A DNA stretch of 64,000 bases from Prosthecobacter sp. Its GTDB lineage: Bacteria > Verrucomicrobiota > Verrucomicrobiia > Verrucomicrobiales > Verrucomicrobiaceae. Each line of letters opens with the position of its first letter. The stretch's first letter is position 1. A program made the position numbers and the translations under genes. The stretch is taken from assembly GCA_021733925.1 (NCBI GenBank), contig JAIPJY010000001.1, positions 62,001 through 126,000 on the forward strand, given 5' to 3'. This document shows positions 36,569 through 40,012 of the stretch, one piece after another. The notes under the pieces were generated by a model. It was not told the DNA's origin. It saw nothing but the letters and a program-made list of their open reading frames with translations, and did no database searches.

Positions 36569-37627
36569 TCACTGCGGCCACTGTCCGTCCACGATCGGTT
36601 TCAGCGTCAGCTTGGCCGGATCAACAACGACATGCTTCACCTTCAGTCGTTTCCACGTGTAGGTGATGTGCACAAGACCATCGCTCGTTTGAATGATCGC
36701 AGGATAGCTGAATTCCTTTTTCGGCTCGTCTTCGAGCACAAGAGCCGCCTCCCACACCTTGCCATCCTTGCTCAGGGCAAGATTCAGCGGACTGCGCCCC
36801 TTGGACGTATGATTGTAAATGAGCAGATGTTGGCCATCCTTGAGAGTAACAGCATCCGTGCCGGAGTTCGGATTCGGCAGCTCAGTGAGTGAGATCTCAC
36901 CCCAGGTGCGCCCTGCATCCTCAGACTGGATTTGAAAAACCTTGCCCTGCCTCGTGCGGCCCACCGCCTGGAGTTTGTCACCACCGAGGAAGAGAATGCT
37001 CGGCTGAATCGCACTGACCTGCAAACCATCGTGCAGCAGCTTCGTGCGCTCCCATGTTTTGCCCAGATCGCTCGAACGCTCAAAGTAAATGGCCCACTCG
37101 CTCGGCTTCGTATCAGTCTCATTGCTCGTGGGGCAGAGGATGTCCCCATTCTTCAACTGCACCGGTTTGTTCTTGATCGGACCAAAGATGCCCTCAGGCA
37201 GCTTGCGCGCCGCCGACCACGTCTTGCCACCATCCGTGGAAGTTTTGAGTTCCCCCCACCACGTGCTCGGCGAAGGTCCAACCTTGTAAAACAGCATCAA
37301 AGGCGCCCCACGCGGCTGAAACAGCACCGGGTTCCACGTCGGATGTCGCATCCCATCGGGCTGCACCCCATTGGCAGTTTCGACGCTCTCCGTCCATTTC
37401 CCATCCACCAGCCGCGAAACCCAGATGCACACATCCGGATTCCTCTCCGCCGTGCCGCCAAACCACGCCGAAACCATCCCCGTCGGCGTCTCAACAATCG
37501 TCGTCGCATGGATGGATGGATAAGGCCCCGTATCGTAAATGTACTCCGTTTTAAGAACAGCAGGATCAGCTTGGGACAACCACGGAATACACAGAATACA
37601 CGGAAGAATGAGTGATAGTTTTTTCAT
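36569..37627 (-). CDS. Secreted sialidase-like BNR protein with repeat-derived signal peptide
   Basis: 352 aa from ATG 37627. Asp boxes (STDGGKTW, SSDLGKTW) and YPSIHATTIVETPTGMVSAWFGG identify a BNR propeller close to bacterial and plant sialidase-like proteins that lack the (F/Y)RIP arginine, so the substrate may not be sialic acid. Codons 8-17 (PCILCIPW and the flanking Leu residues), the hydrophobic core of the signal peptide, are encoded by one arm of the 28-bp inverted repeat that bounds the GxxExxY unit. The ATG sits 17 bp beyond the GxxExxY stop. Confidence 0.8.
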   Translation of the reverse strand: MKKLSLILPCILCIPWLSQADPAVLKTEYIYDTGPYPSIHATTIVETPTGMVSAWFGGTAERNPDVCIWVSRLVDGKWTESVETANGVQPDGMRHPTWNPVLFQPRGAPLMLFYKVGPSPSTWWGELKTSTDGGKTWSAARKLPEGIFGPIKNKPVQLKNGDILCPTSNETDTKPSEWAIYFERSSDLGKTWERTKLLHDGLQVSAIQPSILFLGGDKLQAVGRTRQGKVFQIQSEDAGRTWGEISLTELPNPNSGTDAVTLKDGQHLLIYNHTSKGRSPLNLALSKDGKVWEAALVLEDEPKKEFSYPAIIQTSDGLVHITYTWKRLKVKHVVVDPAKLTLKPIVDGQWPQ

Positions 37628-38103
37628 GAAGTTTGCAGTTGAGTTCAAAGGACGATGCGTTCGATTTCAATCAATGGGTGATGGCAGAAGTTGACCAGAA
37701 AGGCGGGTTTAAAGCCAGTAGCTTTGTGATAATTTTGAACTTGAGCGCGATGGGACTCAGTCAGCTCTTTGACGGCCTTGAGTTCAACGATGATCTTCTC
37801 GTAACAGATGAAGTCAGGGATGTATTCGCTTCTCAGCTTGGTTCCTTTGTAATCAAGCTGCAGCCCGGGTTGCGGGATGGCTGGGACATCAGACAGCGGG
37901 AACTCGATTTCCAAGCATTCCTGATAAACCGGCTCAAGAAACCCAGCACCTTTATTCCGATACACCTCAAACAGGCATCCACGAATAGCGAAGCTCTCTT
38001 CAGGATAAATCAGCTTGGGATTCATGGATAAAAAATTTTCAACCACTGAGAGCACGCAACAAAAAGCAGTCAGGTTTCCGTGTATTCTGTGTATTCCGTG
38101 GTT
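37578..38103. mobile_element. IR-flanked GxxExxY nuclease-like cassette
   Basis: An exact 28-bp inverted repeat lies at 37578-37605 and 38076-38103; pairing breaks at the next base on both sides. Each arm has two offset copies of GAATACACxG. The only gene inside is the PD-(D/E)XK-type protein at 37645-38025. The right end is five bases from the stop of the lyase gene, and the left end is inside the sialidase-like gene. No target duplication was recognised. Mobility is inferred from structure; no transposase is present, so any movement would need help in trans. Confidence 0.55.
37645..38025 (-). CDS. GxxExxY protein, PD-(D/E)XK nuclease-like
   Basis: 126 aa from ATG 38025. The name-giving motif is GAGFLEPVY (G28, E31, Y34), and the nuclease-like core is PDF...VELKA (P70-D71, E81-x-K83), as in PDDEXK_3 proteins. 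The small family is widespread in Bacteroidota, Verrucomicrobiota and Planctomycetota, often in many copies per genome; its biochemical role is not established. It is transcribed in the same direction as the glycan operon but has no signal peptide, unlike all its neighbours, and it is bounded by exact inverted repeats, so it seems to be a guest in the operon. Confidence 0.85.
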   Translation of the reverse strand: MNPKLIYPEESFAIRGCLFEVYRNKGAGFLEPVYQECLEIEFPLSDVPAIPQPGLQLDYKGTKLRSEYIPDFICYEKIIVELKAVKELTESHRAQVQNYHKATGFKPAFLVNFCHHPLIEIERIVL

Positions 38104-38108
38104 AAAAA

Positions 38109-39020
38109 TCAGGCCTTGATCAAACCAAGGTTCACGAGTCTTTCACGAATGATCGCACGTTCCGGGTCACGGAAACGGTGAAACGGCTCAGCCATATGGT
38201 CTTCGCAGATGCCAAGGAGCGAGAGACCACACTTGATGCCCTTGATGATCGCCGACTTGTGCCGCCCCACGGTGTAAATGCTTCCCGCCAGCTGCATCAC
38301 CTTGGCGTGCAGTTCGCGCGTGAGTTTCAAATCCTGCGCCGCTGCGGCCCGATACATCTCCACATAAAGCTTCGGGTGTAAATTGGCCCCTCCGTTGATG
38401 CCCCCATGCCCCCCCAGCAGCACGGCTTCTGCCGTCAGTTCCTCCGGCCCCACCAGCACGCTCCAGTCAGCCCGTTGCTTCGCCACTTCCATCAAGCGGT
38501 GAAAATAGATCATGTCACACGAGCTGTCCTTCACTCCGCAGATGCCCGGCATGTCCAGCGCACGGCGCACCAGATCAATCTCAAAGCTCACCTTCGTCAG
38601 ACCGGGCATGTTGTACAGAAACATCGGCAGTGGCATCTCTGCGACGAGGTCTTGAATGTATTCCTGCAGCTCCGGCGGTGCCGCAGGGAAGTAATACGGC
38701 GGCGCAGTCACCACATGCGTGGCACCCGCCTCGGCGCTATGTCTGGCTAGGTTCACGCTTTCTGTGAACGAAGTATCCGTAATTCCCACCAGCACCGGCA
38801 CGCGCCCCGCCGTTTGCTTGCACGTGCGCTCGATCAGTTCACGCCGCAGGCGGTAGCTCAGGCTGGGGCCTTCCCCCGTGGTGCCCAGAATGAACAGGCC
38901 GGACACACCACCGCCGATGAGATGCTCGATCAGGCGCTCCAATCCGGCGTGGTCGAGCAAATCGCGATCACGCAACGGCGTGACGAGCGGAGGAATGATG
39001 CCAGAGAGTGGTTGGGACAT
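38109..39020 (-). CDS. DapA/NanA-family class I lyase
   Basis: 303 aa from ATG 39020. The frame extends to 39254, but that part overlaps the divergent gene and lacks family similarity. Signature positions are GTTGEG (46-51), Tyr 136 in YNMPG and the Schiff-base Lys 164 in CGVKDSS. The superfamily includes dihydrodipicolinate synthase, N-acetylneuraminate lyase and keto-sugar-acid aldolases. A biosynthetic DapA role is unlikely in this context: it heads a run of secreted glycan genes and is divergent from an AraC regulator, so cleavage of a 2-keto sugar acid released by the cluster is favoured. It is the only cytoplasmic enzyme in this unit. Confidence 0.82.
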   Translation of the reverse strand: MSQPLSGIIPPLVTPLRDRDLLDHAGLERLIEHLIGGGVSGLFILGTTGEGPSLSYRLRRELIERTCKQTAGRVPVLVGITDTSFTESVNLARHSAEAGATHVVTAPPYYFPAAPPELQEYIQDLVAEMPLPMFLYNMPGLTKVSFEIDLVRRALDMPGICGVKDSSCDMIYFHRLMEVAKQRADWSVLVGPEELTAEAVLLGGHGGINGGANLHPKLYVEMYRAAAAQDLKLTRELHAKVMQLAGSIYTVGRHKSAIIKGIKCGLSLLGICEDHMAEPFHRFRDPERAIIRERLVNLGLIKA

Positions 39021-39151
39021 ACTCCACAAGGGACTTCGGAGGTGCCTAAATTGCAACCCACCAGTGCGTCGATTGTTTGCCGGTGAAATGACGATTCTTG
39101 ACCCTTTGCCGCAAGATTCATGCGCTTGGAAACTTTCTGCTTGTCCCCACC
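39021..39151. promoter_or_regulatory. Divergent control region between lyase and AraC regulator
   Basis: 131 bp separate the divergent starts at 39020 (-) and 39152 (+). It should contain both promoters and the regulator binding site, an arrangement usual for AraC-controlled sugar genes. I could not define a -10/-35 pair or operator with confidence. Confidence 0.45.
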
Positions 39152-40012
39152 ATGCCCGCCACCGACCAGGCTGACTACTTTTCGAAGCAAGTCGTACGCA
39201 CCCGCCGCTTCTTCCTCCCGGAGTGGGAAGACCGTCAGCGCGATGCGACGACATTGTGCCTTGTAGGCGGCGGCTGCGAGTGGTGTGCGTCGGATTTCGT
39301 CGTGGATCGGCAGAAGTTCCCCTTCCTCGCCTTCGAGTTCGTATCCAAGGGCCATGGCAGCGTCATGCTGGCAGATCAAACCCATGACATCGAAGCCGGA
39401 CACGCCTTCGTCTTCGATTCCACCACTCCCCAGGTCATCCGCAGCTCAGCCGAGGAACCGATGGTGAAATACTTCTTCAATTTCACCGGCACACGCGCCG
39501 CGAAGCTGATGAGCGATCTTGATCTCGCCCCCGGCAGCGTCCTGCGCGTCACAGACGCCTCACGCATCGACTCATTGCTGGAGGAAGTGATCGACCACGC
39601 CCTGCGCGGCGGCCGCTTTGGCCTGCGCGCCGCTTGTTCAGCACTGGAGCACGCCTTGGTGCTCTGCGCCGACTCCCGCCAGCCCGCCACCGCCAAAATG
39701 GACCCCGCCTACGCCACCTACCTGCGCTGCCGCGGCCACCTCCTGCGCAATTATCCCGTGCTCAGCAGCATCGAGCAGGCCGCCAAAGCCTGTTTCGTCT
39801 CCGCCGCTTACTTCACCCGCCTCTTCCAGCGCTACGACACCGAAACCCCGCTCGCCTGCCTCACCCGCCTCAAGCTCTCCCAGGCCGCCATCAAACTCCG
39901 CCAGCCCGATGCCCTGGTCAAAGGCGTCGCCGCCGAGCTCGGCTACAAATCCGCCGCACATTTTTCGCGCGCATTCAAAGCATGGAGTGGAAGATCCCCC
40001 CGCGGAGGATAG
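39152..40012 (+). CDS. AraC/XylS-family transcriptional regulator
   Basis: 286 aa from ATG 39152; a TTG 18 codons earlier is in frame but less convincing. The N-terminal half is a cupin-like sensor (FLAFEFVSKGHGSVMLAD, GHAFVFDSTTPQVI). The C-terminal ~100 residues hold the two helix-turn-helix units: IEQAAKACFVSAAYFTRLFQRY and KGVAAELGYKSAAHFSRAF. It probably controls the divergent lyase and the downstream glycan operon in response to a sugar. The last codons (SPRGG) fall inside a palindromic repeat that provides the stop. Confidence 0.88.
   Translation: MPATDQADYFSKQVVRTRRFFLPEWEDRQRDATTLCLVGGGCEWCASDFVVDRQKFPFLAFEFVSKGHGSVMLADQTHDIEAGHAFVFDSTTPQVIRSSAEEPMVKYFFNFTGTRAAKLMSDLDLAPGSVLRVTDASRIDSLLEEVIDHALRGGRFGLRAACSALEHALVLCADSRQPATAKMDPAYATYLRCRGHLLRNYPVLSSIEQAAKACFVSAAYFTRLFQRYDTETPLACLTRLKLSQAAIKLRQPDALVKGVAAELGYKSAAHFSRAFKAWSGRSPRGG

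Follow-up and report, generated by a model that had tools for sequence, protein, structure and literature searches.

Among the closest described systems are the RAYTs, HUH enzymes also named TnpA-REP, and the repetitive extragenic palindromic (REP) sequences, which are palindromes according to passages of two reports (PMC3116915, PMC8266576). The intervening sequence of the Coxiella 23S ribosomal RNA (rRNA), as part of a further report describes it, has inverted repeats and, upstream of the S23 open reading frame (ORF), tandem heptamers, and is excised by RNase III (PMC4990558). A TAACTGA heptamer is repeated in direct orientation, dispersed and mostly intergenic, in Beggiatoaceae, Cyanobacteria and Bacteroidetes, as passages of PMC4679880 relate. 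Here we analyse a 526-base pair (bp) unit within a 64,000-nucleotide (nt) stretch of DNA from Prosthecobacter sp. (GenBank assembly GCA_021733925.1, contig JAIPJY010000001.1, positions 62,001 to 126,000 of the forward strand; hereafter the window), in which 28-bp inverted arms bound a single gene of the nuclease-like GxxExxY family. We consider it fairly probable that this unit belongs to a widespread class of single-gene elements associated with repeats, in which a nuclease recognises arrays of heptads and drives their insertion. The repeat words change in step with the branches of the protein family, a pattern suggestive of a kind of small DNA element that spreads and has not been described before.

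The two arms, at 37578–37605 (forward) and 38076–38103 (reverse), are identical at 28 of 28 positions in inverse orientation, as the first-pass annotation of the window had reported; 100 shuffles of the window yielded no match, with up to three mismatches allowed. The 28-mer, AACCACGGAATACACAGAATACACGGAA, consists of three 7-bp units (CACGGAA, CACAGAA and CACGGAA) separated by 2-nt TA spacers. The annotation took the arms as the ends of the unit, which holds in that they are matched inverted repeats, but they are arrays of short units and not classical transposon ends. Nor is the repeat private to the unit: its 22-mer core has 23 matches with at most one mismatch, some of them overlapping, in the 7.3-Mb genome, against none for the reversed pattern, and several copies form gene-less inverted pairs about 26 bp apart. 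Three window-type arrays also lie in direct orientation within 0.7 kb of the same genome (L010–L012, G000:C14:110908-111570). Besides the GxxExxY ORF the unit holds one antisense frame of 132 amino acids, and no transposase match was found inside it with the GxxExxY protein as the sole protein scanned (Pfam and NCBIfam).

The annotation had proposed looking for repeats at other GxxExxY loci, and they are present there. Profile TIGR04256 matches in 228 of the 387 genomes of the phylum sample, from which we took 139 loci (nine rows from the window's own genome, otherwise those with the highest hidden Markov model scores); a cross-phylum set comprised 78 of the 80 loci of a scan for which our first alignment, A1, was too diverse, L266 and L278 being left out for short flanks. 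One protein occurs in both sets (L038 and L315) and passes in neither. The 300 bp upstream of each gene were locally aligned with the reverse complement of the 300 bp downstream, and a score of at least 16 was counted as a pass. Inverted arrays flank the gene at 91 of the 139 own-phylum loci and at 41 of the 78 cross-phylum loci, sets that were not randomly sampled and in which loci from one genome are not independent. Control pairs from the same loci passed in 1 of 176 cases for the first 99 own-phylum loci (61 of which pass) and in 0 of 156 for the cross-phylum set. Together with the window shuffles and the genome-copy count, these controls rule out a chance origin of the repeats. By record title, the cross-phylum hosts include Bacteroidota, Chloroflexota, Proteobacteria, Planctomycetota, Acidobacteria, Spirochaetes and Verrucomicrobia, among others. 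One Bacteroides finegoldii record, chromosomal-looking by its annotated genes, has an array–GxxExxY–array sandwich between radA and a gene for an FAD-dependent protein; at an E value of 1e-5, the window protein matched 6 plasmid records and no phage record.

Array architecture was read from the 132 passing loci, of which 119 have an upstream arm no longer than 70 nt, 108 of these have unit calls and 96 have six good copies. The typical array comprises three 7-bp copies with free spacers of 1–3 nt and occurs in inverted pairs with CC outermost; by a loose pattern, a CC-type or GACAGG motif lies near the outer end of both arms at 63 of the 96 loci. The two arms agree at 1872 of 2016 unit positions, 196 of 350 spacer positions and 174 of 192 spacer lengths, figures that are upper bounds because the set was chosen by alignment score and the gap penalties favour equal lengths; the contrast between units and spacers is the point that counts. 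At four loci (L074, L081, L115 and L118) the first unit is, by eye, apparently interrupted by an insert, as in ACCAC-CCGCTTCGCT-AGAG. In the window's own genome, nine GxxExxY matches fall at eight places (L001 and L008 being one place), around which we find by eye inverted repeats of differing sequence, with CACTAAT, CACGGAT, ACAGGAT and CGCAAA among their units. At the place shared by L001 and L008 (G000:C88), one open frame encodes two GxxExxY domains, of which the second lacks the usual D and ExK (residues read by eye); the frame is enclosed by a 37-bp perfect inverted repeat.

The repeat unit class follows the GxxExxY protein clade. Of the 96 loci, 93 were sorted by pattern into four classes, with units ending AG, AA or AT or reading ACAGGAT, and three were set aside; the protein tree holds 92 of the 93 (one fell outside the length filter) and has few columns and many weak forks. 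On this tree the classes change 4 times, against a minimum of 3 and 23.1 in shuffles, with 0 of 200 shuffles as low; shuffling within quartiles of guanine-plus-cytosine content gave 23.2 changes, with 0 of 1000 as low. Within class I, unit positions 2 and 5 are each congruent with the tree (0 of 1000 shuffles). Two of the four classes occur together in eight genomes, and host composition alone therefore does not explain the link between class and protein. In the 49 genomes whose genes were typed, the presence of class II genes predicts class II arrays (9/11 versus 10/38) and not class I arrays (2/11 versus 14/38).

The dispersed component is mainly arrays without the gene, and the gene itself multiplies rarely within a genome. 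CACAGAG triples occur in 45 of the 387 genomes, with up to 82 copies per genome, and CACGRAA triples in 85, with one reversed-pattern match for each among the matches listed. A GxxExxY gene is present in 103 of the 109 genomes with either array and in 125 of the 278 without (gene flanks counted), and in 45 of the 46 genomes with at least six copies of one array class, the exception being G281. Gene-less strict arrays in four genomes (G125, G228, G225 and G314) have an inverted partner of at least two units within 280 bp on the inner side in 19 of 24 cases, and on the outer side in none. By eye, different array pairs enclose different DNA, and one pair sits inside another: at L166, a CGCGAAG-type pair lies within a CACAGAG pair. 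The left flank of one gene-less array pair (L024) is not syntenic at the gene-less site compared. Among GxxExxY copies within one genome (81 pairs, from part of each genome's copies), the median identity is 43% and one pair exceeds 65%.

The window protein, scanned from the GTG start, matches TIGR04256 at 116.3 bits (cut-off 35) and PF13366 (PDDEXK_3) at 114.3 bits (cut-off 22), its only NCBIfam and Pfam matches. In ATG numbering, G28-x-x-E31-x-x-Y34, D71, E81-x-K83 and Q95-x-x-x-Y99 are invariant columns among 24 members; the annotation had read D71 and E81-x-K83 as parts of a nuclease-like core. A structure model of 128 residues (predicted local distance difference test score 90.7) resembles PD-(D/E)XK nucleases, with SSO0001, which we take to be a Cas4, lambda exonuclease, LHK-Exo and RecE as its best fold matches; the D, ExK and QxxxY pattern presumably corresponds to the motifs named for Cas4/lambda-exonuclease-type nucleases. 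The chain is shorter than most of that group (194–229 residues). Cas4 proteins carry four iron–sulfur cysteines, and four conserved cysteines of that type are not found here, alignment A1 having no invariant cysteine and A3 one. A search of PDB sequences with the window protein returned three rows to E 1, the best at 0.0019 without any stretch that passes alone, and PADLOC gave no match at E 0.01. A passage of one report describes a pipeline that called a GxxExxY domain at a place that another program assigned to cas4 (PMC8934634).

The features of the window locus are as follows.

36569–37627, reverse strand: sialidase-like secreted protein gene (host flank); ATG assigned by eye; the downstream arm falls within its signal peptide.
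37578–37605, forward strand: downstream array (arm), within the signal-peptide codons of the sialidase-like gene.
37645–38025, reverse strand: GxxExxY/PDDEXK_3 gene; start ATG at 38025, possible GTG at 38055.
38041–38059, forward strand: degenerate inner array AACCACTGAGAGCACGCAA, by eye; with the upstream arm it has the geometry of the gene-less hairpins.
38076–38103, reverse strand: upstream array (arm), (C)CACGGAA-TA-CACAGAA-TA-CACGGAA, with AACC outermost; 5 nt to the lyase-like stop codon.
38109–39254, reverse strand: N-acetylneuraminate-lyase-like gene (host flank); ORF as listed, the true start probably inside; name by eye.

The host names come from the earlier reading and from inspection by eye, without a profile scan of those proteins. 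The annotation's placement between the two genes holds at the lyase-like stop, but the downstream arm is not intergenic, as it falls within the signal-peptide codons (...LILPCILCIPWLSQA...) of the sialidase-like gene. In all three congeners examined (G190, G199 and G187), the lyase- and sialidase-like genes are adjacent without a GxxExxY gene; orthologous operons thus do not always carry it. The downstream arm also lies within the sialidase-like signal peptide of G190 and G199, where 26 of its 28 bases match the window (read by eye); both differences fall in spacer positions and both change an amino acid. In G187 the signal peptide is, by eye, not array-like. The downstream arm would thus be either host sequence older than the unit or a remnant after its loss, and on either account arm and unit separate; at a single site, gain and loss look alike. 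There is good support for a compact unit, patchy in its occurrence, in which a nuclease gene is accompanied by matched repeats, and to that extent the minimal mobile cassette proposed by the annotation stands, but one arm is host coding sequence that is present without the unit, and the gene rarely multiplies.

Genes that look by eye like pheT and pheS flank a second element of the same genome. This element occurs at the same place in G190, G187 and G217, the last of another genus, and is absent from G199, G234 and G066; G199 has a gene-less CACTAAT-type array at this site. Between G187 and G190 its gene differs by 0.73 at synonymous and 0.07 at nonsynonymous sites, the synonymous value being near saturation, and selection seems to have conserved the gene. 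From the genus of a Flavobacterium locus (L320, in host G447), 121 genomes were searched and 44 of them read (the 30 loci returned less three unusable, plus 20 chosen from the listing, of which three were repeats). Following a gene named hemW-like by eye, the spacer carries a GxxExxY element in 17 of these genomes, a GIY-YIG-like gene in 3 and neither in 19, and is empty (10–19 nt) in 5. Nine of the 19 spacers with neither gene carry outward-CC class I units, each exceeding any of 300 shuffles, for a pattern chosen after they had been seen. Eight carry CGGAT-type arrays by eye, of which four of five tested passed (G475 did not), and the remaining spacers hold a DUF3291 gene (G541) and an ORF lacking a Pfam match (G459). 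The G517 spacer contains a gene-less array pair of the unit type found in element-bearing species. The small GIY-YIG-like genes (L371, L386 and L393, recognised by pattern) have GATGCTGAAA/TTCAGCATC repeats beside them, and the one scanned matches PF01541.

The arrays, the congruence of unit class and protein, the dispersal, the gene–array association, the gene-less and otherwise occupied sites and the conservation of one orthologous gene are observed directly; the reading we favour is that the nuclease recognises heptad arrays and drives their insertion. Several observations weigh against this reading. In the flank test, 48 of the 139 own-phylum and 37 of the 78 cross-phylum loci fall below the threshold, and the direct-orientation control is not negligible (32/139 and 20/78 pass), because, by eye, arrays also repeat nearby in the same direction. 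In the window's own genome, three of the eight places pass strictly (L004, L005 and L006) and four in a slightly different version (with L009); a looser reading by eye finds an array pair near seven, with L007 having none. The gene–array association is partly trivial, since gene flanks are themselves arrays, and six array genomes, including G281 with 13 copies, have no GxxExxY gene. Class I position 4 is not congruent with the protein tree (78 of 1000 shuffles), and CACAGAG genes predict CACAGAG arrays weakly (6/10 versus 10/39, p = 0.06). The pheT/pheS-like element lies at one place in two genera, and the gene therefore moves rarely. The target duplications that the annotation had suggested seeking are not evident against the gene-less sites compared, where the orthologues have diverged.

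Arrays and gene-bearing units might instead be moved in trans by another enzyme, such as an HUH transposase or the replication and repair machinery, with the GxxExxY protein as cargo that binds or protects arrays. Y1 transposases (PF01797) are indeed common in array genomes (99/109 versus 180/278 of the others) and are weakly associated with arrays even among gene-bearing genomes (odds ratio 2.4, p = 0.047). The 4-helix-bundle (TIGR02436) proteins, not known to us as nucleases, are encoded by genes that are likewise flanked by heptad arrays, of another style. Yet the association with the GxxExxY gene is stronger than that with Y1 and persists after stratification (8/10 versus 21/98 among Y1-less genomes), the unit class tracks the GxxExxY clade, and a Y1 match is missing from ten array genomes, among them G228 (19 arrays) and G156 (20 arrays). 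We regard movement in trans as unlikely, and an HUH transposase as sole driver is disfavoured by the Y1-less genomes and the association that persists among them.

A homing-like element, whose nuclease would cut array-like host sites and be copied in by repair, could account for the downstream arm in the two gene-less orthologues, with its two spacer differences, and for the gene-less pair in G517 where other Flavobacterium species carry the element. However, arrays are far more numerous than genes, no array is seen at the empty site in G187 (by eye) or in five Flavobacterium species, and gene loss leaving one arm would give an identical pattern; we judge homing improbable. That the arrays are operators, RNA elements or termination signals of the gene, without mobility, would fit their nearness to it (at the median of 96 loci, the downstream arm begins 11.5 nt from where the stop codon starts) and the ability of the units of the two arms to pair. 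Dispersed gene-less arrays, the other occupants of one orthologous spacer, the gene-less sites and spacers that match far less between arms than units do speak against such a role, which we consider very unlikely; the mismatch of the spacers likewise disfavours an RNA stem between the arms as the sole explanation.

We therefore return to a nuclease that recognises and inserts heptad arrays. The GxxExxY protein, a minimal PD-(D/E)XK nuclease with a fold nearest the Cas4/lambda-exonuclease/RecE branch, would recognise arrays of its own 7-bp unit and may nick or trim DNA there; this processing would promote the copying or insertion of array-bounded DNA, mostly gene-less pairs and at times the unit with its gene. 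As for the window, the unit was probably added beside an array-like stretch that the sialidase-like signal peptide already contained, and the arms may then have been made identical by copying or conversion. The annotation suggested that the nuclease-like product could mediate or guide the unit's own movement; we infer such movement, as we do binding, cleavage, which DNA intermediate moves and the direction of change. More tentatively, and at a little short of even probability, a guild of minimal elements may exist across Bacteria, each pairing one small protein (GxxExxY, GIY-YIG or perhaps 4-helix-bundle) with an inverted short-repeat code of its own and competing for the same intergenic sites; the arrays would replicate while the heptad specificity of the nuclease co-evolves, a non-HUH counterpart of RAYT/REPIN. 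For a large nuclease family that is still unexplained, these findings suggest a function and supply a substrate that lies ready to use; they may also account for the origin of one class of dispersed short repeats. The unit classes make up a natural series of specificities on which DNA recognition by a very small nuclease can be tested directly.

Among known families, the window protein is a member of TIGR04256 and PF13366 by score, and both profiles describe the protein alone. An exact-word search of open-licence PMC text, with supplements outside its scope, found no element structure or function for GxxExxY/PDDEXK_3, and a like search for six array sequences returned no title on genomic repeats. 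The 4-helix-bundle genes often lie within inverted contiguous heptad arrays (L173–L202; for example, TCAGTTG repeats); the strict test found these at 10 of 28 loci, against 2 of 28 in direct orientation and 0 of 56 pseudo-genes, two of 30 loci being dropped at contig ends. They thereby widen the element idea, yet also support movement by another enzyme. As far as the cited part of the report goes, S23/4-helix-bundle intervening sequences share inverted repeats and tandem heptamers beside a small ORF, and differ in their protein, rRNA location and RNase III excision (PMC4990558). The TAACTGA repeats are likewise dispersed, mostly intergenic 7-bp repeats, but have direct orientation, another sequence and, in the passages cited, no named cognate gene (PMC4679880). 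In the RAYT/REPIN systems, as passages describe them, one gene is flanked by its own repeats, each kind usually being present once per genome; inverted repeat pairs are dispersed, and repeat and protein co-vary (PMC3116915, PMC8266576). The GxxExxY loci share these traits. Unlike a RAYT, the window protein is a PD-(D/E)XK nuclease without an HUH Y1 domain (PDDEXK_3/GxxExxY being its only matches), and unlike REPs the repeats are heptad arrays, with no palindrome of at least 12 nt inside either arm of the window unit. By this analogy, GxxExxY elements appear to work like RAYT/REPIN systems, yet are set apart from them because both nuclease superfamily and repeat architecture differ.
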